NCBI GenBank assembly: GCA_947493005.1
Contig: CANLOY010000001.1
Location: 558,001 to 622,000 of the forward strand
Direction of reading: 5' to 3'
From: an uncultured Roseivirga sp.
GTDB lineage: Bacteria; Bacteroidota; Bacteroidia; Cytophagales; Cyclobacteriaceae
Length of the DNA stretch: 64,000 bases
Position numbers and translations under genes: made by a program. This document shows, piece after piece, positions 35,491 through 46,719 of this stretch. The first letter of the stretch is position 1. The number at the start of each line of letters is the position of its first letter. Below the pieces are notes generated by a model. The model did not search any database and was not told the origin of the DNA. It worked only from the letters and a program-made list of their open reading frames with translations.

Positions 35491-36054
35491 ATGGAATCTC
35501 TCCTTAGATATATCGGCTATTATGTCAACCTTAGTTCACAGTCGAAAGAATTAATCACCAGTACTTTTAAAGTCAACACTTATAAGAAAGGACATATTCT
35601 CTTCAATGAAGGAGATACTTGTCGAAACTTATATTTCATAATAAATGGAGTTTGCAGGACGTATCATGATCATGAAAAAAAAGAAGTGACCACATGGATC
35701 TATCCCGAAAACTATTTTGTGACAGCCTGGTCTAGCTTCATTTTTCAACAACCCAGCCTTGAATCAGTTCAGGTTCTGGAAGATTCTCAAATTGCCTATA
35801 TCACTAAAGATTCACTTAATCTCCTATATGATCAAGACCGTCTTATTGAGCGTTTTGGCAGGCATCTGGCTGAAGAACAATTGGCTCTTTTAGATGATTA
35901 CTCCAGAGGTTATGACCTTAAAAGTGCAAAGGAAAAATACCAGTCACTGTTGTCCTTCTTTCCTGATGTAACTCAGAGAGTAAATCTTGGCTACATCGCT
36001 TCGATGCTAGGGATTACCCAAGAGACCTTAAGTAGAATCAGGCGAAATGCTTGA
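35491..36054 (+). CDS. Crp/Fnr-family transcriptional regulator
   Basis: 187 residues: an N-terminal cyclic-nucleotide-binding-like barrel (VNTYKKGHILFNEGDTCRNLYFIINGVCRTYH) and a C-terminal winged helix (RVNLGYIASMLGITQETLSRIRRN). The recognition helix carries E-T-L-S-R, the E-x-x-S-R pattern that in FNR reads TTGA half sites. Only two Cys (44 and 55) are present and there is no N-terminal Cys cluster, so it is not an FNR-type Fe-S sensor; the ligand is unknown. It converges tail to tail with the Rieske oxygenase, and three TTGA-N6-TCAA sites occur in the next 6 kb, making it the best candidate regulator of that cluster. Confidence 0.9.
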   Translation: MESLLRYIGYYVNLSSQSKELITSTFKVNTYKKGHILFNEGDTCRNLYFIINGVCRTYHDHEKKEVTTWIYPENYFVTAWSSFIFQQPSLESVQVLEDSQIAYITKDSLNLLYDQDRLIERFGRHLAEEQLALLDDYSRGYDLKSAKEKYQSLLSFFPDVTQRVNLGYIASMLGITQETLSRIRRNA

Positions 36055-36069
36055 TTGATAAGCCTTTGC

Positions 36070-37221
36070 TCAGAAGTCTCTATTCATCCATTGTTTTATT
36101 AATGTCTGAAAGCCTCTTATGGGTTCTTCACCATGCTCTGCAAAATGTTGTACGTCATAAAGAGGGTTTTTTAGAGATTTTTGCTGTTGTTCACATGCGA
36201 AAATATCTTCTTCCATAAAGTCCATTAGTGAAAATACGTCCTCTTTGTCCGTACTATCATATTTTGCCGAACCACCCATAATCTTTGACCAGTTCTTCTT
36301 AGACTTCCTGTTTTGATAGTAGTACTCCATAGACGTCATCTCTTCCAACTTCGTTCTAATTTTAATTTTTGTCCTATCAGGAGATAATGGTTCGATGTGA
36401 AAAGTACTCCATGAAGACTCTGTCTCTGCTAATCCGAGGCTCGGAAAAAGCCAAGGTACAAAAGCACTTAAATATGAATCTGTCACCTCCTGTATCCTTT
36501 TGAACGGTATTAAATCTTCAAGATTCTCTCTGTATTTTCTTTCCAGTGGTTCTCGAAACATATAGTGATTCTCCACAAAGCAAAACTCTCCTTTTCTATG
36601 ATCATACATGTTGAGCGTATTCGAGTGCAAGTGTGACAGGTGATAAATGTCAATATAGTTTTCAACAATGATCTTCCAATTTGCGTTAACTACCTTCTCA
36701 TAGCTAGAGTCAGGATATTCGATCAGTCGTGAAGGAACATGAGGCCCCAGGTATTGGTCGGTGCCATTAAACCATCCCTCAATATTCTTACCCGGTTTTG
36801 GATGCACCCAAATAATTCCTCTCCAAATTCCAACAGAAGCTTTGTGTAAACAAATGGTATTTAAATCGAGCGATGGGAATTCTTTTTTTCTATCAGGAAC
36901 ACCTATCAGTCGCCCCTCCAAATTATATGTCCAATCATGATATGGACAGGTAATAAGTTTCTGTCTTTTTCCTGCTGTTCTAAGTAGCTGTGTTCCACGA
37001 TGACGACATATATTATGAAATGCCATTAATTTCCCCTCTCCATTTTTGATAATCAAAATGCTTTGAGAACCACATTGAGTTATTAATGAATCTCCTGAGT
37101 CACTTAGGTCTTCAATCAATCCGGCATACTGCCAGGAATTTCCAAAAATGTACTGCTGTTCTTTTTCAAACCATTCTTGAGAAGTATAGGCCGATTTCGG
37201 AAGTATTGTTGTTTGGTTCAT
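36070..37221 (-). CDS. Rieske non-heme iron oxygenase, alpha-subunit type
   Basis: About 383 residues, aromatic-ring-hydroxylating dioxygenase family. In the longer reading from 37236, the Rieske cluster ligands are C77-x-H79 and C97-x2-H100 (CRHRGTQ, CPYHDWTYN). The catalytic iron ligands are H199 and H204 in ENYIDIYHLSHLHSNT and a C-terminal acid near D344 (EEDIFACEQQ). Both centres are intact. Substrate is not readable; close types act on aromatic acids, quaternary amines or sterols. No ferredoxin or reductase partner is adjacent. I prefer the second ATG (37221), because a -7 box at 37241-37248 would make the first ATG (37236) nearly leaderless. Confidence 0.9.
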   Translation of the reverse strand: MNQTTILPKSAYTSQEWFEKEQQYIFGNSWQYAGLIEDLSDSGDSLITQCGSQSILIIKNGEGKLMAFHNICRHRGTQLLRTAGKRQKLITCPYHDWTYNLEGRLIGVPDRKKEFPSLDLNTICLHKASVGIWRGIIWVHPKPGKNIEGWFNGTDQYLGPHVPSRLIEYPDSSYEKVVNANWKIIVENYIDIYHLSHLHSNTLNMYDHRKGEFCFVENHYMFREPLERKYRENLEDLIPFKRIQEVTDSYLSAFVPWLFPSLGLAETESSWSTFHIEPLSPDRTKIKIRTKLEEMTSMEYYYQNRKSKKNWSKIMGGSAKYDSTDKEDVFSLMDFMEEDIFACEQQQKSLKNPLYDVQHFAEHGEEPIRGFQTLIKQWMNRDF

Positions 37222-37240
37222 GGAATTGACATTCATTAAC

Positions 37241-37248
37241 CAAAATTA
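37241..37248 (-). promoter_or_regulatory. Predicted -7 box of the Rieske oxygenase gene
   Basis: On the minus strand this reads TAATTTTG, an exact TAnnTTTG. The predicted transcription start is ~37235, about 42 bases from the centre of the upstream Crp/Fnr-type palindrome, the class II activator distance. Confidence 0.5.
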
Positions 37249-37267
37249 TACCTCCAGTTATCCTACT

Positions 37268-37287
37268 TTTTTGACTTAAGTCAAAAA
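37268..37287. promoter_or_regulatory. Crp/Fnr-type binding site between divergent genes
   Basis: TTTTTGACTTAAGTCAAAAA is a perfect 20-base palindrome with the core TTGAC-N4-GTCAA, the form used by FNR/DNR-like members of the Crp/Fnr family. Its centre is ~42 bases from the predicted start of the Rieske gene on the left. On the right it is ~42 bases from the start predicted by TACATTTA (37307-37314) for the lipoprotein operon. A Crp/Fnr gene lies 1.2 kb away. Confidence 0.75.
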
Positions 37288-37330
37288 CTCACTGATTATC
37301 AGACTCTACATTTAAGCTCTATTTGATCTT

Positions 37331-37723
37331 ATGAGAGCAGGATTTGTTTTGATAGTTATACTTGGTATAAGCTCATGCAACCAGACGCCCAATCTGCTTG
37401 AGGGTAGTTGGAGTGTCTCAAGTGATTTTTACAAAGCCAACTATAGAATCACAAAGCAAGGTAGAATGCATCATGCATTGATTTTAATGTACGATGATGG
37501 TACAACCAGATTCAAACATGATCCACTAAATCCTAATTACCTCTTTAAATCTTTAAGAAGCAGGAATGATGGAATATATGTTGACGCTATTAGTGGAGCA
37601 ACTAAAAGCAAGAATACTCAAGCCAACTTTCGAATAAGTCAAATAAATATAGACACACTGTTTGTTGACCAATACATCAAAGGGAAACCAATTAGTGAAG
37701 TATGGGTCAGAATGAAAAATTGA
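37331..37723 (+). CDS. Small lipoprotein of unknown function
   Basis: 130 residues. A short signal peptide with a lipobox (VILGISSC, Cys16) predicts a lipoprotein. The body starts LLEGSWSVSSDFYKANYRI and ends KPISEVWVRMKN; the G-x-W start and alternating strands suggest a small lipocalin-like beta barrel, but no family is recognised. It is first in a four-gene plus-strand run (lipoprotein, lipoprotein, cytochrome c, DUF5777 protein) whose genes are 2-10 bases apart. Its promoter region contains the Crp/Fnr-type palindrome 43 bases before the ATG. Confidence 0.75.
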   Translation: MRAGFVLIVILGISSCNQTPNLLEGSWSVSSDFYKANYRITKQGRMHHALILMYDDGTTRFKHDPLNPNYLFKSLRSRNDGIYVDAISGATKSKNTQANFRISQINIDTLFVDQYIKGKPISEVWVRMKN

Positions 37724-37725
37724 TT

Positions 37726-38871
37726 ATGAGTGATTTAGTAAAAGCAACTTCCATTCTATTGCTGATTGTATTTTTTAGCGGTTGTGAAGATGAAATTAGA
37801 AACATAGCTGAGATTAATGAGTCTCCTTCTCCCGACTTGTCCCGAGAAGTAAATCCATTAGATATCAACGTTGATGGCTTTGACTTTTTAGAAAAAATGC
37901 AAGGTCACTGGACAGGACCTCTACGAATTATCGCAGATGATTTTGATTGGTTTGCTTTTGATTATCGCGCTATTTCTCCCTCACATATCCATGGAATTTT
38001 TGAAGGCGGTTCTGCAGGCAATTTGCTCACTTCCTTTTTTGTCACCGACTTTAAAAATACCAGAACCATCATGGCAAGAAACGGTGGGTTACTGAATGGG
38101 ATTTATCGTACCAGTTACTTCGTGTTGGACAGTATCAGGTATGACGCTGACAATAGCAAATATTTCAGGCTTGTAGATGCTAATGGAGGTGCGGCCATTA
38201 TGTACATGGAACTAAGGTTTAAAAGTGACAGCCTTTACTTCAATGCCTATACAAGTAGACTCGGATTGAATCTAATGCCTGTTAGACACATGACCTTTAG
38301 ATCTAGTCGAAAAAACCCTGAACTGGCATTGCAAGCAGCTCAACAATTAGGTTTCCCTCAGAACAATTCTGCCTGGGATTTTTCCGGTGGATTTAGGCAA
38401 GATCTTCTCTACATCAACCCTGGTGATACAGAACCAAAATCAGCGACTTTTCTCGCTCAACAAACAGGAAGTAATGATGTCTTTACCTTAGCGGACGAAT
38501 CTCGCGACCCATTCAGAATTCAAGATCACCCATATCTTGGCTATTTGACGGTAAACATTGTTAGAAATACAGCTATCGAAGACAAAGGTTGGTTTCTGTA
38601 TTTATCTAAAGAACCATTGACAGACAGTAATGGGTTTTTTATTAATGAGTCATTCAGTTCTGTACTTCGTTTTCCTGAGATTATAGCTACGGAGAACAGC
38701 TTCAATTTCACATATATGCATCCTGGTGAATACTATGTAACCGTAATCGCTGATGCCAATGAAGACGGGAGTATCTCTGCTGGAGATATAACTCATGTGA
38801 GTCAAAAAATTGAATTAAGTCCGGAACAGACTTTAACAGTTACCATTGACAATATCAATATCCAGAATTAA
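37726..38871 (+). CDS. Lipoprotein of unknown function, second gene of the cytochrome cluster
   Basis: I chose ATG 37726, two bases after the preceding stop, giving a 381-residue protein with signal peptide and lipobox (LLIVFFSGC, Cys20); the upstream in-frame ATG overlaps the previous gene. The region after residue ~55 begins EKMQGHWTGPLRIIADDFDW, again a W-containing beta-barrel-like start as in the neighbouring lipoprotein. The C-terminal ~100 residues (PHPGEYYVTVIADANEDGSISAGDITH-like, about 330-365) resemble a dockerin/EF-type calcium loop, D-A-N-E-D-G-S-I-S-A-G-D. No family is recognised. It is part of the operon with the cytochrome and DUF5777 genes. Confidence 0.75.
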   Translation: MSDLVKATSILLLIVFFSGCEDEIRNIAEINESPSPDLSREVNPLDINVDGFDFLEKMQGHWTGPLRIIADDFDWFAFDYRAISPSHIHGIFEGGSAGNLLTSFFVTDFKNTRTIMARNGGLLNGIYRTSYFVLDSIRYDADNSKYFRLVDANGGAAIMYMELRFKSDSLYFNAYTSRLGLNLMPVRHMTFRSSRKNPELALQAAQQLGFPQNNSAWDFSGGFRQDLLYINPGDTEPKSATFLAQQTGSNDVFTLADESRDPFRIQDHPYLGYLTVNIVRNTAIEDKGWFLYLSKEPLTDSNGFFINESFSSVLRFPEIIATENSFNFTYMHPGEYYVTVIADANEDGSISAGDITHVSQKIELSPEQTLTVTIDNINIQN

Positions 38872-38881
38872 TAATCTACTG

Positions 38882-39238
38882 ATGAAAGTAAAATATAGTA
38901 TTGTCAGCCTTCTGGCTATATGGGTTTCAAGCTGTACCACAGCAGTCATCGAAGAGACTAACCCTGAGGAGCTACCACCTATCACTGAAGTTGTACGATA
39001 CAACCCAGAAATACAGACTATCATGTTTAATTATTGCACAACCTGTCATTCGGGTCCCAGTGCCAATGCTGGGGTTGAACTGGATACTTACCAGAGCGTG
39101 AGATTTTATACTGAAAGTAGTAACCTCATTAACAGGATTAATAACCAGGTTAATCCTATGCCTCCTAGCGGACTGATTCCAGCAGTGGATCGTCAAAGAG
39201 TTGCTAAATGGCTAGAAGACGGATTTCCTCAAAACTAG
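38882..39238 (+). CDS. Lipoprotein c-type cytochrome
   Basis: 118 residues from ATG 38882 (MKVKYSIVSLLAIWVSSC, lipobox Cys18). An in-frame ATG at 38846 overlaps the previous gene and lacks a signal. One heme site CTTCH (52-56) and a plausible axial Met93 in NPMPPSG define a monoheme cytochrome c of the short planctomycete/Bacteroidota-type domain (YCTTCHSGPSANAGVELDTYQSV). It is tethered to a membrane facing the periplasm and probably passes electrons. It lies 10 bases after the lipoprotein gene and 5 before the DUF5777 gene. Confidence 0.88.
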   Translation: MKVKYSIVSLLAIWVSSCTTAVIEETNPEELPPITEVVRYNPEIQTIMFNYCTTCHSGPSANAGVELDTYQSVRFYTESSNLINRINNQVNPMPPSGLIPAVDRQRVAKWLEDGFPQN

Positions 39239-39243
39239 AAATT

Positions 39244-40107
39244 ATGGTAAGAAAATTAAGAATTATATCAATAGCCCTTTTCGTGAGCTTTAACATTTCA
39301 TACAGTCAGGATGAAGAAGACCTATTGAGCATACTTGAATCCGAAAATAAAGCAGAGACCTTTAATTTACCATCATTCAAAGCGATGAAGATTGGAAACT
39401 TACAATCTACAAAGGTGGCTGACAAAGGCGATTTATACTTGTATGTTTCTCATCGGTTTGGAACCTTAGAAAATGCTGGATCAACTTTTTTTGGTTTTGA
39501 TAATGCCAATACAAAAATTCAAATCATCTATGCCATTTTCAATGGTGTACAAGTCGGAATAAGTCGAGAATCATTAAGAAGAACCTTTGCCAGTTCTGTC
39601 AAAGTTCGGCTTAAAAATCAAACAGCCCAGTTTCCAGTTAACATCAGCTTTTATAGCACGGTCAACCTCAATACTGACTTAAGCAAAGAAAGGTATCCTA
39701 AACTTAAATATTTCGATCGCCTTAGTTATGCTTCTCAATTACTGATTTCACGAAGATTGAATGTAGATTTCTCCTTGCTGTTAGCTCCTACTTTCGTTCG
39801 ACAAAACCTGGTTTTAGAAGCATTTCAAAATCATGAGCAGTTCGCTTTGGGAATGGGAGGCAGACATAAACTCAGCAAACGTCTTTCTGTAAATGTTGAC
39901 TACGTTTACAATTTCAGTAGAGCGGAGCAGTCTATCTATAAAAATCCCTTAACGATAGGAATAGATATTGAGACTGGTGGACATGTATTTCAGTTATTGT
40001 TTTCCAATGCTCAATCTACTAATGAACCTGGGTTCATCAGTAATGCAGAAGGTAATTGGAGTCAAGGAGATATATTCTTTGGGTTTAATATAGTAAGGTC
40101 CTTCTAG
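39244..40107 (+). CDS. DUF5777 family outer-membrane beta-barrel protein
   Basis: 287 residues from ATG 39244 (MVRKLRIISIALFVSFNISYSQ, a signal peptide); the longer reading from 39208 overlaps the cytochrome gene and is less likely. The rest is strands with aromatic ends (YLYVSHRFGTLENAG; LLFSNAQSTNEPGF; GDIFFGFNIVRSF with terminal Phe), typical of an outer-membrane barrel. The family is usually encoded next to c-type cytochromes, as here, but its role is unknown; it could be a pore or an electron conduit. It ends the four-gene run and converges with the small membrane protein at 40138-40293. Confidence 0.85.
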   Translation: MVRKLRIISIALFVSFNISYSQDEEDLLSILESENKAETFNLPSFKAMKIGNLQSTKVADKGDLYLYVSHRFGTLENAGSTFFGFDNANTKIQIIYAIFNGVQVGISRESLRRTFASSVKVRLKNQTAQFPVNISFYSTVNLNTDLSKERYPKLKYFDRLSYASQLLISRRLNVDFSLLLAPTFVRQNLVLEAFQNHEQFALGMGGRHKLSKRLSVNVDYVYNFSRAEQSIYKNPLTIGIDIETGGHVFQLLFSNAQSTNEPGFISNAEGNWSQGDIFFGFNIVRSF

Positions 40108-40137
40108 CTTACCTGAGTTTTCGAAATAAAAGCTACT

Positions 40138-40293
40138 CTACTTACCATTCTTTGGGTTTTTGTAGGCTACCAAATAGTCTATTCCAAACCATAGAATGAT
40201 AAAAACACCCCAAATCATCCATGAGTATACCCCATAAATGTACATTACAATCATTAGGAGAATGAAGATAATATTGACAGTGGTACGAATCAT
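40138..40293 (-). CDS. Small membrane protein (51 aa)
   Basis: A complete small frame with ATG at 40293 and TAG at 40138. It encodes MIRTTVNIIFILLMIVMYIYGVYSWMIWGVFIILWF-type sequence (given here only as two helices separated by GVYSWM), i.e. two hydrophobic segments followed by a short basic tail ending AYKNPKNGK. It follows the fatty-acid-hydroxylase gene by 30 bases on the same strand, so it is likely co-transcribed with 41209-41697 and 40324-41202 and under the same Crp/Fnr-type site. Function unknown; it could be a partner or anchor of the hydroxylase. Confidence 0.65.
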   Translation of the reverse strand: MIRTTVNIIFILLMIVMYIYGVYSWMIWGVFIILWFGIDYLVAYKNPKNGK

Positions 40294-40323
40294 AACTCTA
40301 ATCGTTCGGACTTTGTAATTCTA

Positions 40324-41202
40324 CTATTTTTCAGGCTCCCAACCGGGAGGTTTGATAAGGTAATTAACCTTGTTTTTAAATCCTTTGGTGGATTTGATAC
40401 TACGATATAAACGAGTAAAACCGTGGAAAAACACCTTGATCGGGTTTATACTATTCAAAGGCTCTGTTATCCCGTATACGACTTTCTCCTTTTCTTCAGC
40501 AAAAGTGCCTAAAAGACGATCCCATATAATAAAAATCCCTGCATAGTTTTTATCTAAATATTGTTCATTCGAACCATGATGCACTCTATGATGAGAGGGT
40601 GTATTAAAAATGTATTCGAGTGGTCTGGGAAGCTTTCCAATTACCTCTGTATGTAAGATTGCCTGAAAAGATTGCACAAAGAGTTCGACAAACAAAAGCA
40701 TCCAGGGGTTAAAGCCCAACATAACAATGGGAAGGGAAAAGAAGATCGGAAAAACAGCATCAAGAGGACCAAACCTGTATGCTACTGACATATTAAAATG
40801 AGGCGAACTATGATGTACTGTATGTGTTGCCCAGCCAATCCCGATTCGATGCATCACTCTATGATCCCAGTAGTAGGCAAAATCGGCTAACAATATGCAG
40901 CAGGTTACTGTAACAATATTCAAAGGCAAGTGTGGTAGACTTATGTATTCATATACATAGAAATAAAGCTTGTAAAGCAGTAGTGCTCCTAATGTAAACT
41001 CGATCATAACAAAAGCAACAACTGTTATTATATTGGCAATTGAGTCACCCAGAATATTCCAGTTAAGTTTTTTAAGAACGGCATATCGGATCAATTCCAG
41101 TATAAAAAAAGGAATGATAAGATAGAATACGCTACCATTATTAACGTAATCGAAAAAATACTGTAGCTCTTCTAGCTCAAATGTTTGGGTTAGAAATTCC
41201 AT
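40324..41202 (-). CDS. Sterol desaturase / fatty acid hydroxylase superfamily membrane enzyme
   Basis: 292 residues with membrane helices at about 25-45, 55-85 and 155-180 and the di-iron His clusters of the superfamily: H114-x3-H118 (HRVMH), H127-x2-HH (HTVHHSS), and H204-H205-x2-H208-H209 (PSHHRVHHGS). All expected histidines are present. The family uses O2 to hydroxylate or desaturate lipids, including sterols, hopanoids, carotenoids and fatty acids; the substrate cannot be assigned. It is the middle gene of a three-gene minus-strand unit (6 bases after the secreted protein gene) and pairs functionally with the nearby Rieske oxygenase as a second O2-dependent enzyme. Confidence 0.9.
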   Translation of the reverse strand: MEFLTQTFELEELQYFFDYVNNGSVFYLIIPFFILELIRYAVLKKLNWNILGDSIANIITVVAFVMIEFTLGALLLYKLYFYVYEYISLPHLPLNIVTVTCCILLADFAYYWDHRVMHRIGIGWATHTVHHSSPHFNMSVAYRFGPLDAVFPIFFSLPIVMLGFNPWMLLFVELFVQSFQAILHTEVIGKLPRPLEYIFNTPSHHRVHHGSNEQYLDKNYAGIFIIWDRLLGTFAEEKEKVVYGITEPLNSINPIKVFFHGFTRLYRSIKSTKGFKNKVNYLIKPPGWEPEK

Positions 41203-41208
41203 TGTGGT

Positions 41209-41697
41209 CTATTGTTCAAGTCTTTTCCAGTTTTCTTTACCCTCATACCCATAGTAATTATAACTGAGTGTTACATTACCTTCGTCATCCATTTTCATTT
41301 GACTATCCACTTTAAGTTTCTTCCCTTCATATTCAATTTGATACACGGCTTTTGCAATTGAATCAGTTATTTGAATGTCCTCCATGACGATGGCATTGTC
41401 TTCAAAGCTATTTCCGTTTGCATCAATTAATAAGATCGAGTAGCATTTATATTGATCTGACTTTTCACGGATTTCATAGTGTGCTTTCTCTTTTATCCCA
41501 TCAAAGCTTACTTCATATTTCCCAACCCAATATGGTTCCCAGCCTTCGTTTACTTCATCTGTTACTATTTCCGGAATTTGTGGCTCTGCTATATCGCTTT
41601 CTTTGGTTGAACTGACATACAATGCTAGAGTATGAGGGATACCTGCTATAGTTACAACAATAAGCAATGACCTCAATAGAAGGGTAGAGTTCTTCAT
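41209..41697 (-). CDS. Exported protein of unknown function (162 aa)
   Basis: N-terminal signal or anchor segment (LLLRSLLIVVTIAGIPHTLALYV), then an acidic linker and a compact beta-rich domain (EPYWVGKYEVSFDGIKEKAHYEIREKSDQYKCYSILLID; ENWKRL end). The G-K-Y-E-V start and strand pattern resemble small lipocalin-like domains, as in the two lipoproteins of the neighbouring operon, but no family is recognised. First gene of the unit with the hydroxylase; the Crp/Fnr-type site is 45 bases upstream. Confidence 0.7.
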   Translation of the reverse strand: MKNSTLLLRSLLIVVTIAGIPHTLALYVSSTKESDIAEPQIPEIVTDEVNEGWEPYWVGKYEVSFDGIKEKAHYEIREKSDQYKCYSILLIDANGNSFEDNAIVMEDIQITDSIAKAVYQIEYEGKKLKVDSQMKMDDEGNVTLSYNYYGYEGKENWKRLEQ

Positions 41698-41742
41698 TAT
41701 CTTCGATTAAGATTCAAATATGAGCTATAATAAAATAGTCAA

Positions 41743-41760
41743 TTTTGATCTATATCAAAA
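41743..41760 (-). promoter_or_regulatory. FNR-like binding site before the hydroxylase unit
   Basis: TTTTGAT-CTAT-ATCAAAA contains the exact FNR core TTGAT-N4-ATCAA. Its centre (41751.5) is ~42 bases from the start predicted by a near-match -7 box (41715-41722, CATATTTG on the minus strand). Same spacing and flanking A/T pattern as the site at 37268-37287. Confidence 0.7.
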
Positions 41761-41807: not shown

Positions 41808-44282
41808 TCACAACTTTAACTGAAGTGTAAAATAGTAGCTCCTTGGGTCTGAAGGTATAATTCCAGGGCCAGGATAACCCGTTGCTCTTCTGGTAAAATA
41901 CTTGTTGTCTAAAAGGTTATTGATTCCTGTTTCAACCTTCCAGTTTTTAAAAGTGTATGAAAAAGACAAATCCATTATAGAGTAGGCTGGAATTTCGCCA
42001 ATAACACCATTTCTCACATCTCCATCTGTAGGTACTGATGAATTCTCTACGTCAGTAAACTGCTTTGAGAGGTAGGTAAACTGTAAGTTGGCCAGTAAGT
42101 TTTTATAGCCAGCTTTTATACCCGTCTTCAAATTCACAGTAGGAATAAATTCCACTTTCTTTCCTTTTACGTTGTTCTCTTCAGATTCAAGGTACTCTGA
42201 AGTTGTTAAGGCTCCATTAACAAACCAATTCAACCTATAGAGTCCATCATTCATATTTAGCGTATTTGCCAGATTCCAGTCCGCAAACCCTTCAAGCCCA
42301 TAGATAAAAGCTTTACCAATATTCTTTCTCACTCTATTGGCACGATCATCAAGAATGATTCCTATCCTATCGTCATACAATAATGCGAAACCACCCACAT
42401 CATAAGAAAGTTGATTATTCCATTTTCCCCGTAGACCAAAATCTCCTGTAAAGCCTTTTTCATCTCGAATGTTGGGGTCAATAATAAAGGTTGGATTGAC
42501 TGTTCTGATATCACTGAAAGTTACTGAGCGATAGTTTTGTGAAATGTTAGCATATATCTCGAGGTTCTCAGAGTGATCATAACTTGCTCCTAGTCCTAAA
42601 AGCAAGAAGGTTCTCTTTAGTTCTCTATTGTCCTCAAGGGTTCTGTTAAAAATAGGATTCCCTGCATTATCAAAATTCACCTGCCTGAAAGCACCTATAC
42701 TTTCTGTTTTGATATGTTCCAGTCTGAAACCAGGAGTAAGAGAAATCTTTTCGTTCAGGTAAAAAATATGCTCACCGAAAAGTGTAGCATTCAGGTTAGG
42801 GAAGTTAAAATCAGACTGGTTAGGATAGTCTGGGAACCGACTGTTTGCAAAGCTGAAATTCGCATCTGTCCCCCTGGTACCAGCACCCTGTCTGCTAAAA
42901 TTATCAGCCTTGTAAAACTTGGCACCAATAAGAAACACAGCATCTTTGTCCAACAGCTGATACCTTGTTAATAACCTTGCCTCAGCTCCCCAGTTATTAA
43001 AATCTCCTTTGATTAAATCCCTTGGGTTTACAAACCCTCTATCAACGTTTTGTTCATCTAATTCTAAAACAGGATTTGTATTGAGAAGTGTTGGGTTACC
43101 TCTAAAACCTAATGCATTTCTGGATGCATCTAAACCAAATACATTCAAGCTAAAGTCTGTTCTCTGCGAGAACTTATGTTCCAGTTTAAGGGAAAAAAGA
43201 TTCCAGATCACATTAAACCAGTTTCTGGTTCGATTACTAAAATTAGGATTGTTTCGAAATTGTGTATCGGTTAACCCTCCAGCTTGTTGAGCCAAATAGT
43301 TCAGGTGAGTAAAATCAAAGGAGAGTGAGGTTTTCGGATTAAATGCATAATTGATATTGGCAAAGTAATTCTTTGACTCATATTCAGAATTAGCTCTGAA
43401 CCCATCACCTCTTTTGTAATTGAAATAAGTGTAGTAGCTCAATTTACCCAAGGTTCCACTAGCGCTATTAAAGCTGGTGAAAAGACCAAAAGAGCCTGCA
43501 GATTGACGTGACACCCATTCAAGTTTCTTAGATGGATGAGGAGTTTTCATCTTAAAGTTAATTAAGCCTCCAAACTGAGTTCCATATTGCAAAGATGCTG
43601 CTCCACGAATCACCTGGATTTCACTTAAACCCTCAGCGGGTGGTGTATAATAACTTTCAGGGTAGCCTAATACATCGGCACTGATATCATATCCATTCTG
43701 ACGTGTATTGAAGTTAGCTGTTCGATTAGGATCAAGCCCTCTTCCTCCTATGCTTAACTGAAGTCCGGCATCAGCCGATTCATAAATATTCAGCCCAACC
43801 ACCTGAGCATATACCTGCCGTGCATTGTTTGAGGCAAGATTACCAATTGTCTGATCTAGCAATACAACTTCTGATTTTTTCCCGGCAAAAATCGAAGTGC
43901 CTTCTACTGGTTTAAGACGATTAATGCTAAAAATTTTCTCTCTTTCCTGCGAAACCACTACTGCCGAAAGTTCTCTGGAGATCTCTTTCAATTCAATATC
44001 CAGAACTATGCTTTTGGAGACCACCACAGCTCTTTCTTCTACTTGATAAGAATGAGAATAAACTACCAGATAATAAGTCCCTTCAGACAAGTCTGGCATA
44101 ATGTATTCTCCACGGGAGTTGGTTTCAATGATCTGCTGTGTGTTCTTGTTATAGACTTCCGCCTTCGTCACGGGTCTTCCACTTTTAGCATCGGTGATTT
44201 TCCCTTTAACACTATACTGTGCCCAAACTGCTGTAGGCAATAGCATTAACAATATGAAACTATAAACCTTTGATTTCATCAT
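41808..44282 (-). CDS. TonB-dependent receptor (FecA-like)
   Basis: 824 residues: signal peptide (LPTAVWAQ), a carboxypeptidase-regulatory-like beta domain (~23-105), a plug domain (NNARQVYAQVVGLNIYESADAGLQLSIGGRGLDPNR), then a 22-strand barrel ending YYFTLQLKL with terminal hydrophobic residues. Sequence is closest in type to Fe(III)-citrate/siderophore receptors (FecA-like), supported by the imelysin and DUF4856 genes upstream. The start overlaps the HTTM gene by 23 bases, so it is the last gene of the operon transcribed from 48064. Ligand not proven; ferric citrate or another siderophore is likely. Confidence 0.92.
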   Translation of the reverse strand: MMKSKVYSFILLMLLPTAVWAQYSVKGKITDAKSGRPVTKAEVYNKNTQQIIETNSRGEYIMPDLSEGTYYLVVYSHSYQVEERAVVVSKSIVLDIELKEISRELSAVVVSQEREKIFSINRLKPVEGTSIFAGKKSEVVLLDQTIGNLASNNARQVYAQVVGLNIYESADAGLQLSIGGRGLDPNRTANFNTRQNGYDISADVLGYPESYYTPPAEGLSEIQVIRGAASLQYGTQFGGLINFKMKTPHPSKKLEWVSRQSAGSFGLFTSFNSASGTLGKLSYYTYFNYKRGDGFRANSEYESKNYFANINYAFNPKTSLSFDFTHLNYLAQQAGGLTDTQFRNNPNFSNRTRNWFNVIWNLFSLKLEHKFSQRTDFSLNVFGLDASRNALGFRGNPTLLNTNPVLELDEQNVDRGFVNPRDLIKGDFNNWGAEARLLTRYQLLDKDAVFLIGAKFYKADNFSRQGAGTRGTDANFSFANSRFPDYPNQSDFNFPNLNATLFGEHIFYLNEKISLTPGFRLEHIKTESIGAFRQVNFDNAGNPIFNRTLEDNRELKRTFLLLGLGASYDHSENLEIYANISQNYRSVTFSDIRTVNPTFIIDPNIRDEKGFTGDFGLRGKWNNQLSYDVGGFALLYDDRIGIILDDRANRVRKNIGKAFIYGLEGFADWNLANTLNMNDGLYRLNWFVNGALTTSEYLESEENNVKGKKVEFIPTVNLKTGIKAGYKNLLANLQFTYLSKQFTDVENSSVPTDGDVRNGVIGEIPAYSIMDLSFSYTFKNWKVETGINNLLDNKYFTRRATGYPGPGIIPSDPRSYYFTLQLKL

Positions 44283-45621
44283 TAAATGGAAGTATCCATG
44301 ATTTATGTTTGAAAGATTCTTTAAAAGAAGTCAGGTCAACCTCAGGGTTTATATATGGCCGGCTTCTTCTACCATTAAGTGCCACATAGCTCTCGACATA
44401 AACTCCTATATTTTCATGTCCCTGACTACTGAAATGTTTTTTTAGGTAGTGTGCGTATTCTAAAATAAAGTCTGGCTGCGTAGCCATTTGCTTTTCCTGA
44501 AAAGGCGTAAGAAAGTCTGTATTGTCTACATAAAACCGGTCTCCGGTTTTCTTATTTACAATTTTAAAATTGGCATAGCCGGCTTTTTCCATCAGCATTA
44601 CTCTCCATGAAAACCGAAAGCCCTCTTCAGTCCAGAAGAGTTCTCCCGGATACAGGTAATGTCGAAAAGGCAAAAGCAGTTGAATGGCAAAAAAACCGGT
44701 TAGCAGATAAAGACTGAATCTCCGTCCAGAATTAATAGCCATGTTCAATCCATTGTCAAACGTTGGCTTTTGAATTCTGAATAAGCGGGAAATTGTGTTA
44801 AGTATCTTATGATGCAGGCTTGAGTCAAAGAAAATTAGTCCGCTCACAATCATGATGTATGGGAACATTCCGATTGGAAACAATATCCTTGTAATTACAT
44901 GAAAGAAGACAACTGCACCAAAAGCATAAACGCGTGTTTTTTTGTTAATCAACAAAAAGGGTATAGTTAGATCATACAATGCTCCACCCCAACTGAAAGC
45001 ATAGTGTACCCATTTTTCCTGCAAAAAATCCCCCAACAAGGGTATGTCATACTTAGAGGGCAACCAGATTTTTAATGGCATAGCTTCAACTAACCAGTCT
45101 GAATTAAGCTTTGCCAAGCCAGCATAAAAATATACAATAGCCAAAAGCAGTTTAATACTATCAATTGTCCATTGAGGGACTCTCTGAAATCTCTTTGTTT
45201 CATCTTTAGCGGCATCAAAAGATAAGTAGCTATCTGCGGGTAAAAAGATCATGACAAACGCCACCAGACTAATGAAATAATAATGGTTGAGATAGGTGGT
45301 TTTATCCATCAATTCGATGTAAGTGAAACTGATGAAAAATGTAATGATTGAAATTCTATACCTGAACCCTAACATTACTCCCACTGCTGAAAGTGCGCAA
45401 ACGACAAAGAGTAAGTAGGTATATTCACCTAAAGGTTTTACAAACTCAAAGCCATAATAAGAAAAGGAGAAGTTGGGTTGTATATAGAGTTTATCGATCC
45501 AGCCATAGCTCCAGAAGCGAATGATGCTGACTAGCATCATCAGGCCAAATAAAATACGAAAGACTGCCAATGGCGCAGCCTCCGTAGTTTTTTGAAAATA
45601 TGACCGATCAAACAACCTCAT
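44260..45621 (-). CDS. HTTM / vitamin K-dependent gamma-carboxylase-like membrane protein
   Basis: 453 residues with several transmembrane helices in the first ~320 residues and a soluble C-terminal domain. Motifs DKTTYLNHYY (106-115) and YAGLAKLNSDW (167-177) are the HTTM/VKGC hallmarks; Lys171 aligns with Lys218 of human gamma-glutamyl carboxylase, the proposed catalytic base. The family carboxylates Glu in eukaryotes; bacterial HTTM proteins in iron operons have no proven reaction. The stop-start junction with imelysin has no gap and its 3' end overlaps the receptor gene, so the four genes are one unit. Possible roles: modifying the neighbouring Glu/Asp-rich lipoprotein or a ligand; inference. 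Confidence 0.88.
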   Translation of the reverse strand: MRLFDRSYFQKTTEAAPLAVFRILFGLMMLVSIIRFWSYGWIDKLYIQPNFSFSYYGFEFVKPLGEYTYLLFVVCALSAVGVMLGFRYRISIITFFISFTYIELMDKTTYLNHYYFISLVAFVMIFLPADSYLSFDAAKDETKRFQRVPQWTIDSIKLLLAIVYFYAGLAKLNSDWLVEAMPLKIWLPSKYDIPLLGDFLQEKWVHYAFSWGGALYDLTIPFLLINKKTRVYAFGAVVFFHVITRILFPIGMFPYIMIVSGLIFFDSSLHHKILNTISRLFRIQKPTFDNGLNMAINSGRRFSLYLLTGFFAIQLLLPFRHYLYPGELFWTEEGFRFSWRVMLMEKAGYANFKIVNKKTGDRFYVDNTDFLTPFQEKQMATQPDFILEYAHYLKKHFSSQGHENIGVYVESYVALNGRRSRPYINPEVDLTSFKESFKHKSWILPFNDEIKGL

Positions 45622-46719
45622 TTAATCTCCATCAGCATCAACAAAATCAACCTGAATACTCAATGCCTGAAACATATCGACCTTCATCAATACCACATTC
45701 ATTTGAAGCTGATCATAGGTCTGGAGCATCAAGGTATTATTAGTTGTTACTTGCTGTGAGAAGCTATTTTCCAGATTTGTTGCACTAGTCCTGCTACCAT
45801 TAAACTGATTGTTAATCAGCTGGCTTAAATCTGTTCCTTCTTTTATGGTATTAAGAAAATCCAGATAAGACTTGAGGCTTTGCCCTGTTGTGCTACTGCT
45901 ATAATGCTTACCATTGAAGAAATTCTGCGCAGCATTCAGCGCCTCTAAGAATAATGCTTTTGAAAAGTCCCCTTTATAAAAAGCCTCTACTTTTTCATTG
46001 AAAGTATTGTTAGAAAATACCCCTGCAGGAATGCCGATTTTACCTGCTCTCAGCGATTTCTCATAGTAAAACATGAAGTCGTTTACTAATTTATTCACTG
46101 CACTTGAAGCAGAAGATCCATTGTTATTCACAAAAGTGTCTCTGTAAGTAGTAGTCCAATCGTTCAGTACCTCTGTTCCCAAATCACGAAGTCTGGTGAC
46201 CACATCATTCAGATAGTTCTTATGATTGGTTGTATTAAGCGCATTAACTATTGAGGCATCATCACTTGCTATTCCGTTAAGCAAATAATCCAAAGCAGGG
46301 AAACCTTGTTCATCGTTGGTCGATGGAAGTGTAAGGTTATAATTTCCTTGTGCTATATTCTGGTCAATCTCACTGGCATCGGCCGGGAATATATTGGTAA
46401 AGTTCCTTAAAGTCAGTGCTTCGGCTCTGCCAATTTCGAACATGGAAACGTGCTGCCACTTTTTATAGGCCTCTTGCCAGGCTGTTCTTAATTCGTTAAG
46501 AGTTGCCACAGAAGGAGAGGCTATAAATCCGTCTGACTTAGTCTTCAACTCATCAAGTTCACCTTTGTAGGCCTGATAAGAAGGAACTATGATATTGTCG
46601 GCCCAATTAACGAGCATGGCAGACCTGTCAAAGTTGTCTGTAGTATCTGGTCCATTATCGGAAGACGAACAACTAGCAACGATACTGATGACAAATAATA
46701 GTGTTAATACTTTTTTCAT
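45622..46719 (-). CDS. Imelysin-family lipoprotein (iron-regulated)
   Basis: 365 residues: lipobox (ISIVASC, Cys17), then a helical imelysin domain in two similar bundles (QAYKGELDELKTKSDGF; WQEAYKKWQHV). The family signature G-x-H-x-x-E is changed to GFPALDYLL (139-147): His is Pro and Glu is Asp, so the putative metal/peptidase motif is lost. Family members (IrpA/ICMP type) are induced by iron shortage and occur beside FecA-like receptors, as here. Second gene of the operon, 76 bases after DUF4856; a hairpin (46746-46773) lies in that gap. Confidence 0.9.
   Translation of the reverse strand: MKKVLTLLFVISIVASCSSSDNGPDTTDNFDRSAMLVNWADNIIVPSYQAYKGELDELKTKSDGFIASPSVATLNELRTAWQEAYKKWQHVSMFEIGRAEALTLRNFTNIFPADASEIDQNIAQGNYNLTLPSTNDEQGFPALDYLLNGIASDDASIVNALNTTNHKNYLNDVVTRLRDLGTEVLNDWTTTYRDTFVNNNGSSASSAVNKLVNDFMFYYEKSLRAGKIGIPAGVFSNNTFNEKVEAFYKGDFSKALFLEALNAAQNFFNGKHYSSSTTGQSLKSYLDFLNTIKEGTDLSQLINNQFNGSRTSATNLENSFSQQVTTNNTLMLQTYDQLQMNVVLMKVDMFQALSIQVDFVDADGD

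Follow-up and report, generated by a model that had tools for sequence, protein, structure and literature searches.

We describe a small gene cluster at positions 35,491 to 41,760 of a 64,000-nucleotide stretch of DNA from an uncultured Roseivirga sp. (GenBank assembly GCA_947493005.1, contig CANLOY010000001.1, positions 558,001 to 622,000; this whole stretch is called the window below), in which the gene for a Crp/Fnr-family regulator lies close to three transcription units preceded by TTGA-type palindromes. The palindrome is conserved upstream of orthologous units in relatives, keeps a fixed distance from the promoter's -7 box, and co-occurs with the regulator and the gene set. It is probable, from the sequence comparisons reported here, that the local regulator activates the three units and that these form an accessory redox module of the cell envelope in which two oxygenases would play the roles proposed below. 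The regulatory reading overall is strongly supported by these comparisons, and redox-linked lipid oxidation is a plausible best guess for what the module does.

An earlier note on this DNA had placed two palindromes and a set of open reading frames (ORFs) in the cluster. A scan of the window found both palindromes at the coordinates it gave, and the ORF list contained the frames as it had stated them. The site at 37268-37287 is a perfect 20-mer palindrome between two divergent genes, and the site at 41743-41760, upstream of the third unit, is symmetric at 16 of 18 positions. The features of the cluster are as follows.

35491..36054, + strand: Crp/Fnr-family one-component regulator, 187 amino acids (aa); cNMP_binding PF00027, E 4e-13
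36070..37236 (true start maybe ATG 37221), - strand: Rieske non-haem iron oxygenase alpha subunit; PF00355 E 1.9e-18, PF00848 E 1.9e-21
37248-37241, - strand: oxygenase promoter -7 box TAATTTTG, from its spacing to the palindrome
37268..37287, no strand: Crp/Fnr box TTTTTGACTTAAGTCAAAAA, common to two divergent promoters and conserved in relatives
37307..37314, + strand: weaker -7-like box TACATTTA for the lipoprotein operon, TTTA replacing TTTG
37331..37723, + strand: 130-aa lipoprotein LP130, first gene of its unit; alignment A5
37702..38871, + strand: 389-aa lipoprotein LP389, predicted nitrobindin-like beta-barrel plus C-terminal domain
38882..39238, + strand: lipoprotein monohaem cytochrome c (CxxCH); PSCyt1 E 1.3e-05, start chosen by eye
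39208..40107, + strand: DUF5777 predicted outer-membrane beta-barrel; PF19089 E 1.3e-81
40138..40293, - strand: 51-aa membrane protein; BLAST relatives in loci L035 and L030
40324..41202, - strand: membrane di-iron hydroxylase, FA_hydroxylase family; PF04116 E 2.2e-30
41209..41697, - strand: exported protein EXP162 (162 aa) at the head of the third unit; homologues in relatives
41722-41715, - strand: third promoter's -7 box CATATTTG, from its spacing to the palindrome
41743..41760, no strand: Crp/Fnr box TTTTGATCTATATCAAAA, serving the third unit

The extended form of the site, TTTTGAY-N4-RTCAAAA, has exactly two copies in the 4.88-Mb genome, both within the cluster; the count was taken from the 50 genome places that match this pattern with at most two mismatches. 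The shorter form TTGAY-N4-RTCAA is about twofold enriched in the genome (60 vs 29). Among the 50 of 60 TTGAYNNNNRTCAA places listed, six lie outside every selected ORF of at least 60 aa: two are the cluster sites and the other four stand directly beside a Crp paralogue.

Conservation was followed in relatives with LP389 as the marker for the module. LP389 occurs in 4 of 59 near relatives, the genome itself counted, in 10 named contigs (nine Flavobacteriaceae and one Saprospiraceae), and as a clear orthologue (E <1e-100) in 6 of 395 genomes of the class, again counting its own. The module is accessory and sporadic at this last frequency; any LP389 match at E 0.001 was present in 67 of the 395, most of these matches being to short repeats or distant paralogues. 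All 23 orthologous LP389 units, window included, have a palindrome of at least the TTGAY-N4-RTCAA form 26-100 base pairs (bp) ahead of their first gene; they come from 22 loci in 18 genomes and are not 23 independent events, as several Tenacibaculum records are close kin. With the pattern fixed beforehand from the window alone, no palindrome was found upstream of the LP389-paralogue gene in any of 24 distant-paralogue loci, one of which has a match inside another ORF. The comparison that the earlier note had called for, conservation of the site together with the gene set, thus came out at 23/23 orthologous units vs 0/24 paralogue loci. A strict pattern, TTTTGAYNTANRTCAAAA, is present in six of the six LP389 genomes, compared with 25 of the other 389 (Fisher p 1.4e-7), a co-occurrence that is not fully independent because the inner TA was partly read from the tested loci; the reversed control of this pattern was present in 19 of 395 genomes by a hand count of rows. 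Eighteen of 19 carrier entries, two of which are one genome, hold the strict site in up to 6 copies per entry, and the Saprospiraceae metagenome-assembled genome has the looser palindrome only.

The position of the palindrome in the promoters is regular. In each of the three window promoters a -7-like box stands equally far from the palindrome. Of 49 oriented site-promoter pairs (duplicates removed; 25-80 bp between site and start), 40 have the TTTG of the -7 box beginning at exactly 33.5 bp from the centre of the palindrome; in 1000 shuffles this spacing was reached by 0.28 promoters on average and by 3 at most. TTTG stood at the same distance in 40 of 57 promoters of an earlier, looser set, in which the inner TA of the palindrome was near-strict (T in 56/57, A in 51/57). 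In Flavobacterium psychrophilum the -7 box TAnnTTTG lies at -12 to -5, according to PMC9723704, and this placement together with the 33.5-bp spacing would put the palindrome centre at -41.5, a class II position. The promoters fit such a site as predicted from the -7 box, and the class II distance suggested in the earlier note is borne out to this extent by a spacing conserved in 40/49. Predicted transcription starts are at 37236, 37319 and 41710. Since the first of these falls on the ATG at 37236, translation of the Rieske protein may begin at the ATG at 37221; the Rieske proteins of relatives have a similarly short stretch ahead of the conserved AYT motif.

The nearby gene had been described as a Crp/Fnr gene with an E-T-L-S-R helix, and both its PF00027 match and a Q-E-T-L-S-R recognition helix near the C-terminal end of the 187-aa protein agree with that. 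The sequence QETLSRIR is invariant in nine of nine cluster regulators (alignment A2), which share no invariant Cys, and no helix-turn-helix Pfam model matched the regulator at E 0.01. In the Crp/Fnr family residues 180 and 181 are tied to motif bases 3 and 6 (PMC1274295); the Glu at 181 and the lack of Arg at 180 in the regulator fit TTGA. A close regulator orthologue (E <1e-65; next best 1.4e-52) was present in six of 390 genomes of the class, and these are exactly the six with LP389 in the 395-genome sample; the profile behind this count was built from nine cluster regulators including that of the window, which is the only one of them to come from those six genomes. We infer that the product of the nearby gene binds the palindrome and that binding activates transcription.

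Other members of the family occur in the same genome. There are nine matches to the regulator profile, and with one partial Crp match (L172) omitted eight remain for a comparison of helices. All five with an E-T-[LF]-S-R helix have TTGAY-N4-RTCAA nearby and outside ORFs: in four it lies in the gap that separates the regulator from the next gene, and in the window it is one gene away; none of the three with other helices has this palindrome outside ORFs. This link (5/5 vs 0/3) makes the five look like local one-component regulators, and it suggests a rule by which short Bacteroidota Crp/Fnr proteins with an E-T-x-S-R helix may act on next-door genes. The four other paralogues (L165, L166, L168 and L171), each with its palindrome before the next gene, adjoin alpha/beta-hydrolase-like, small membrane protein, weak DUF4386 and DinB-like genes, some recognised by eye. 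Among 18 homologues in the class that do not belong to the module, 10 have TTGA-N6-TCAA outside ORFs in the locus and 8 do not. Six of these 18, as a raw count, adjoin a lipid enzyme or sit one gene away from it: FA_hydroxylase in L181 and L183 (Pfam) and in L191 and L192 (BLAST), Ceramidase in L182 and Lipid_desat in L184. The pattern search gave two further FA_hydroxylase-regulator pairs with sites (L159, L162), and most of these eight loci have a palindrome outside ORFs.

The genes of the module recur together in the relatives. Co-located across the 22 loci are Rieske, FA_hydroxylase, EXP162, LP130, cytochrome c, YceI, DUF5777 and small membrane proteins, and a weakly OB-like protein is a further co-located gene. 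The Rieske protein matches the Rieske and Ring_hydroxyl_A families and shows CxH/CxxH and DxxHxxxxH motifs in its translation by eye. Homologues of the di-iron hydroxylase in the relatives' module loci are 62-89% identical, with one at 40%, and EXP162 homologues are preceded by the site in L035 and L128. The lipobox Cys is invariant in the LP130 alignment (A5, n=17), and LP389 may start at an invariant Met9. Pfam at E 0.01 gave no family for LP130, LP389, EXP162 or the 51-aa protein.

LP389 was modelled with AlphaFold2, giving a predicted local distance difference test score of 88.8 with a 43-sequence alignment, compared with 70 for the first model. Foldseek matched the model to eight nitrobindin chains at probability 1.00, with TMt 0.55-0.59, root-mean-square deviation (rmsd) 6.4-8.1 and E ~1e-3; a further two chains scored TMt 0.39 and 0.45 at rmsd >13. 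The best matches by E-value, rhamnogalacturonan lyases and a glycosyltransferase, had a full-length rmsd >17 and were rejected as loose multi-domain matches. H196 is invariant in 37 of 37 homologues and lies in the last barrel strand (194-204) of the model, which makes it a candidate for the proximal haem histidine of a nitrobindin. An assignment of LP389 to nitrobindin by sequence was rejected, as Pfam, hhalign and a PDB profile search, the last with one chance match at E 1.8, all gave no support and the fold search alone matched. LP389 is therefore described as a nitrobindin-like barrel by fold search only, with putative haem binding. It resembles nitrobindin (PF08768) in its barrel, and may do so in the invariant His of the last barrel strand, but differs in lacking a sequence-level match, in being a lipoprotein, in its extra C-terminal domain and in its fusion to cytochrome c in five loci. 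In these loci (L032, L034, L038, L130 and L132) cytochrome c and the LP389 domain form one lipoprotein of 481-497 aa, which suggests that the two work together; each fusion is preceded by the palindrome.

On this evidence we propose that the local Crp/Fnr-family regulator, through its FNR-type helix, would bind TTTTGAY-n-TA-n-RTCAAAA palindromes centred at -41.5 and so activate, from a class II position, the three transcription units of the envelope redox module. Candidate signals are nitric oxide (NO), oxygen tension and lipid oxidation. The combination of oxygenases, barrel lipoproteins and a cytochrome points to redox handling of membrane lipid. More speculatively, a membrane lipid or isoprenoid might be oxidised by the two oxygenases, Rieske and membrane di-iron, and the lipoproteins and DUF5777 barrel might deal with the oxidation product or with the redox chemistry that goes with it; the lipoproteins in that role would be the nitrobindin-like barrel with the monohaem cytochrome c, the small exported proteins and, in relatives, YceI. 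A more specific version is possible, though on balance doubtful: the cytochrome c and a haem-binding, nitrobindin-like lipoprotein would exchange electrons, this exchange would be coupled to the hydroxylation of membrane lipid by the Rieske and di-iron enzymes, and control would lie with a clade of local Bacteroidota Crp/Fnr regulators that recognise the same -41.5 palindrome and recur near lipid-modifying enzymes.

Besides the limits given above for the 23 units, the strict pattern, the regulator profile and the lipid-enzyme counts, several observations weigh against this reading. In the window the lipoprotein operon promoter has TTTA where the other two have TTTG, and the full TAnnTTTG box is correctly placed in only 18 of 57 promoters of the looser set. 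The gene content of the module varies between loci, and no Rieske gene was found at E 1e-30 in genomes G020 and G028, although LP389 is there. Nitrobindin PF08768 was not matched at E up to 10 among 13 LP389 members, and hhalign of LP389 against nitrobindin gave E 0.64, without profile support. Nine of the 23 units (L038, L026, L031, L032, L033, two in L034, L130 and L131) come from fetched loci without a regulator gene; in six cases the genome carries one in another fetched locus (L037, L128, L121, L126, L135 and L132), and for L026 and both L034 units no other fetched locus showed one. Finally, the window has no more copies of the bare TTGA-N6-TCAA core than chance would give (5 vs 3.39 expected, with 5 reached in 23 of 100 shuffles), and the TTTTGAY-N4-RTCAAAA pattern with two mismatches is not enriched genome-wide (50 vs 62 in the reversed control). 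These two counts would suit chance palindromes in AT-rich intergenic DNA, an explanation to which conservation in relatives and the fixed promoter spacing leave a negligible probability.

The main rival to redox handling of membrane lipid is defence against nitrosative stress, in which the regulator would sense NO as DNR and HcpR do and the nitrobindin-like lipoprotein and cytochrome would scavenge NO or peroxynitrite at the envelope. The cluster box resembles the DNR/FNR motif TTGATnnnnATCAA and the delta-proteobacterial HcpR motif wyTTGACnnnnGTCAArw (both from PMC1274295), and the barrel fold of LP389, its invariant H196 and the cytochrome-LP389 fusions point the same way. We nevertheless think this unlikely: LP389 lacks the Pfam and profile matches to nitrobindin, no NO reductase, hcp or denitrification gene was recognised beside the sites by eye, with no family search made, and the Rieske and di-iron oxygenases would be left unexplained.

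Two further alternatives concern the regulator itself. The palindromes could be read by another Crp/Fnr paralogue or by a global FNR-like regulator, the nearby gene being a bystander; cross-talk is possible among five paralogues of one genome with E-T-[LF]-S-R helices and similar nearby palindromes, and the nine units with no regulator gene in the fetched locus would agree with it. That the genome has just two extended sites, each of them in the cluster, and that the close orthologue of the regulator is confined to sampled genomes that have the operon make this distinctly unlikely. The regulator could also be a repressor with its operator over the -33 region, as the palindrome covers about -50 to -33, judged from the spacing, which is the place of a -33 element. 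The constant distance to the -7 box is what polymerase contact demands, whereas a repressor's operator need not keep it, and we consider repression very unlikely.

The proposed activation by the local regulator can also be set beside known systems. FNR proper needs cysteines for its oxygen-sensing iron-sulfur cluster; the cluster regulators, which share the TTGA half-sites with it, show no invariant Cys in their alignment. The FNR, DNR and HcpR regulons resemble the present one in their TTGA-type palindrome, E..SR helix and class II position, and HcpR2 is likewise often encoded beside its target (PMC1274295). They differ from it in that the cluster regulators have no invariant cysteine, the cluster box has a near-strict inner TA, and the targets are oxygenases, lipoproteins and a barrel, with no hcp or denitrification gene recognised by eye. 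The best-scoring characterised relatives of the Rieske oxygenase are GbcA/CntA-type Rieske monooxygenases, and its best-scoring solved relative is carnitine monooxygenase; unlike the GbcA/CntA and GbcB/PaaE systems, the cluster protein scores far below the equivalog cut-offs and the window cluster has no reductase, a GbcB/PaaE-like reductase gene being present in 8 of the 22 loci. The hydroxylase shares PF04116 and a weak OlsE match with the FA_hydroxylase membrane di-iron enzymes such as OlsE, but reaches 66.8 bits vs a 475-bit cut-off, and a PDB search with it gave three weak matches to receptor constructs. DUF5777 was named in none of the papers in the literature collection searched. The literature matches listed for the motif and the gene set did not concern the cluster, and the earlier description of the system as undescribed is not contradicted by them.

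For this promoter set the analysis supplies a candidate regulator, a defined site and predicted starts of transcription, which makes it directly testable. It also brings two lipoprotein families, DUF5777 and a small exported protein, all of unknown function, together with oxygenases and a cytochrome in one unit predicted to be co-regulated.

The neighbouring unit at 41808-46719 consists of a TonB-dependent receptor with HTTM-like and imelysin-like genes, the last two recognised by eye. It was considered as a member of the module and set aside, having no palindrome of its own among the window's five; in genome G008 the two are on different contigs, the receptor on C73, the cluster on C24. The TonB-receptor unit (41808 onward) thus seems to lie outside the module.

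Some minor observations were made in the relatives. The distant LP389 paralogue of loci L080-L103 belongs to a family of about 350 aa, found in many class genomes, that keeps the invariant His of LP389 and has no palindrome. The LP389 copy in L131 is split over two frames, and the Rieske gene in L134 is split into two ORFs. Strict palindromes were also seen between hemA-like and AraC-like genes (by eye) in two Tenacibaculum genomes (L125, L127), and in T. holothuriorum (L123, L124) they precede a second Rieske oxygenase gene and aldehyde-dehydrogenase-like and EtfB-like genes, the last two identified by eye.

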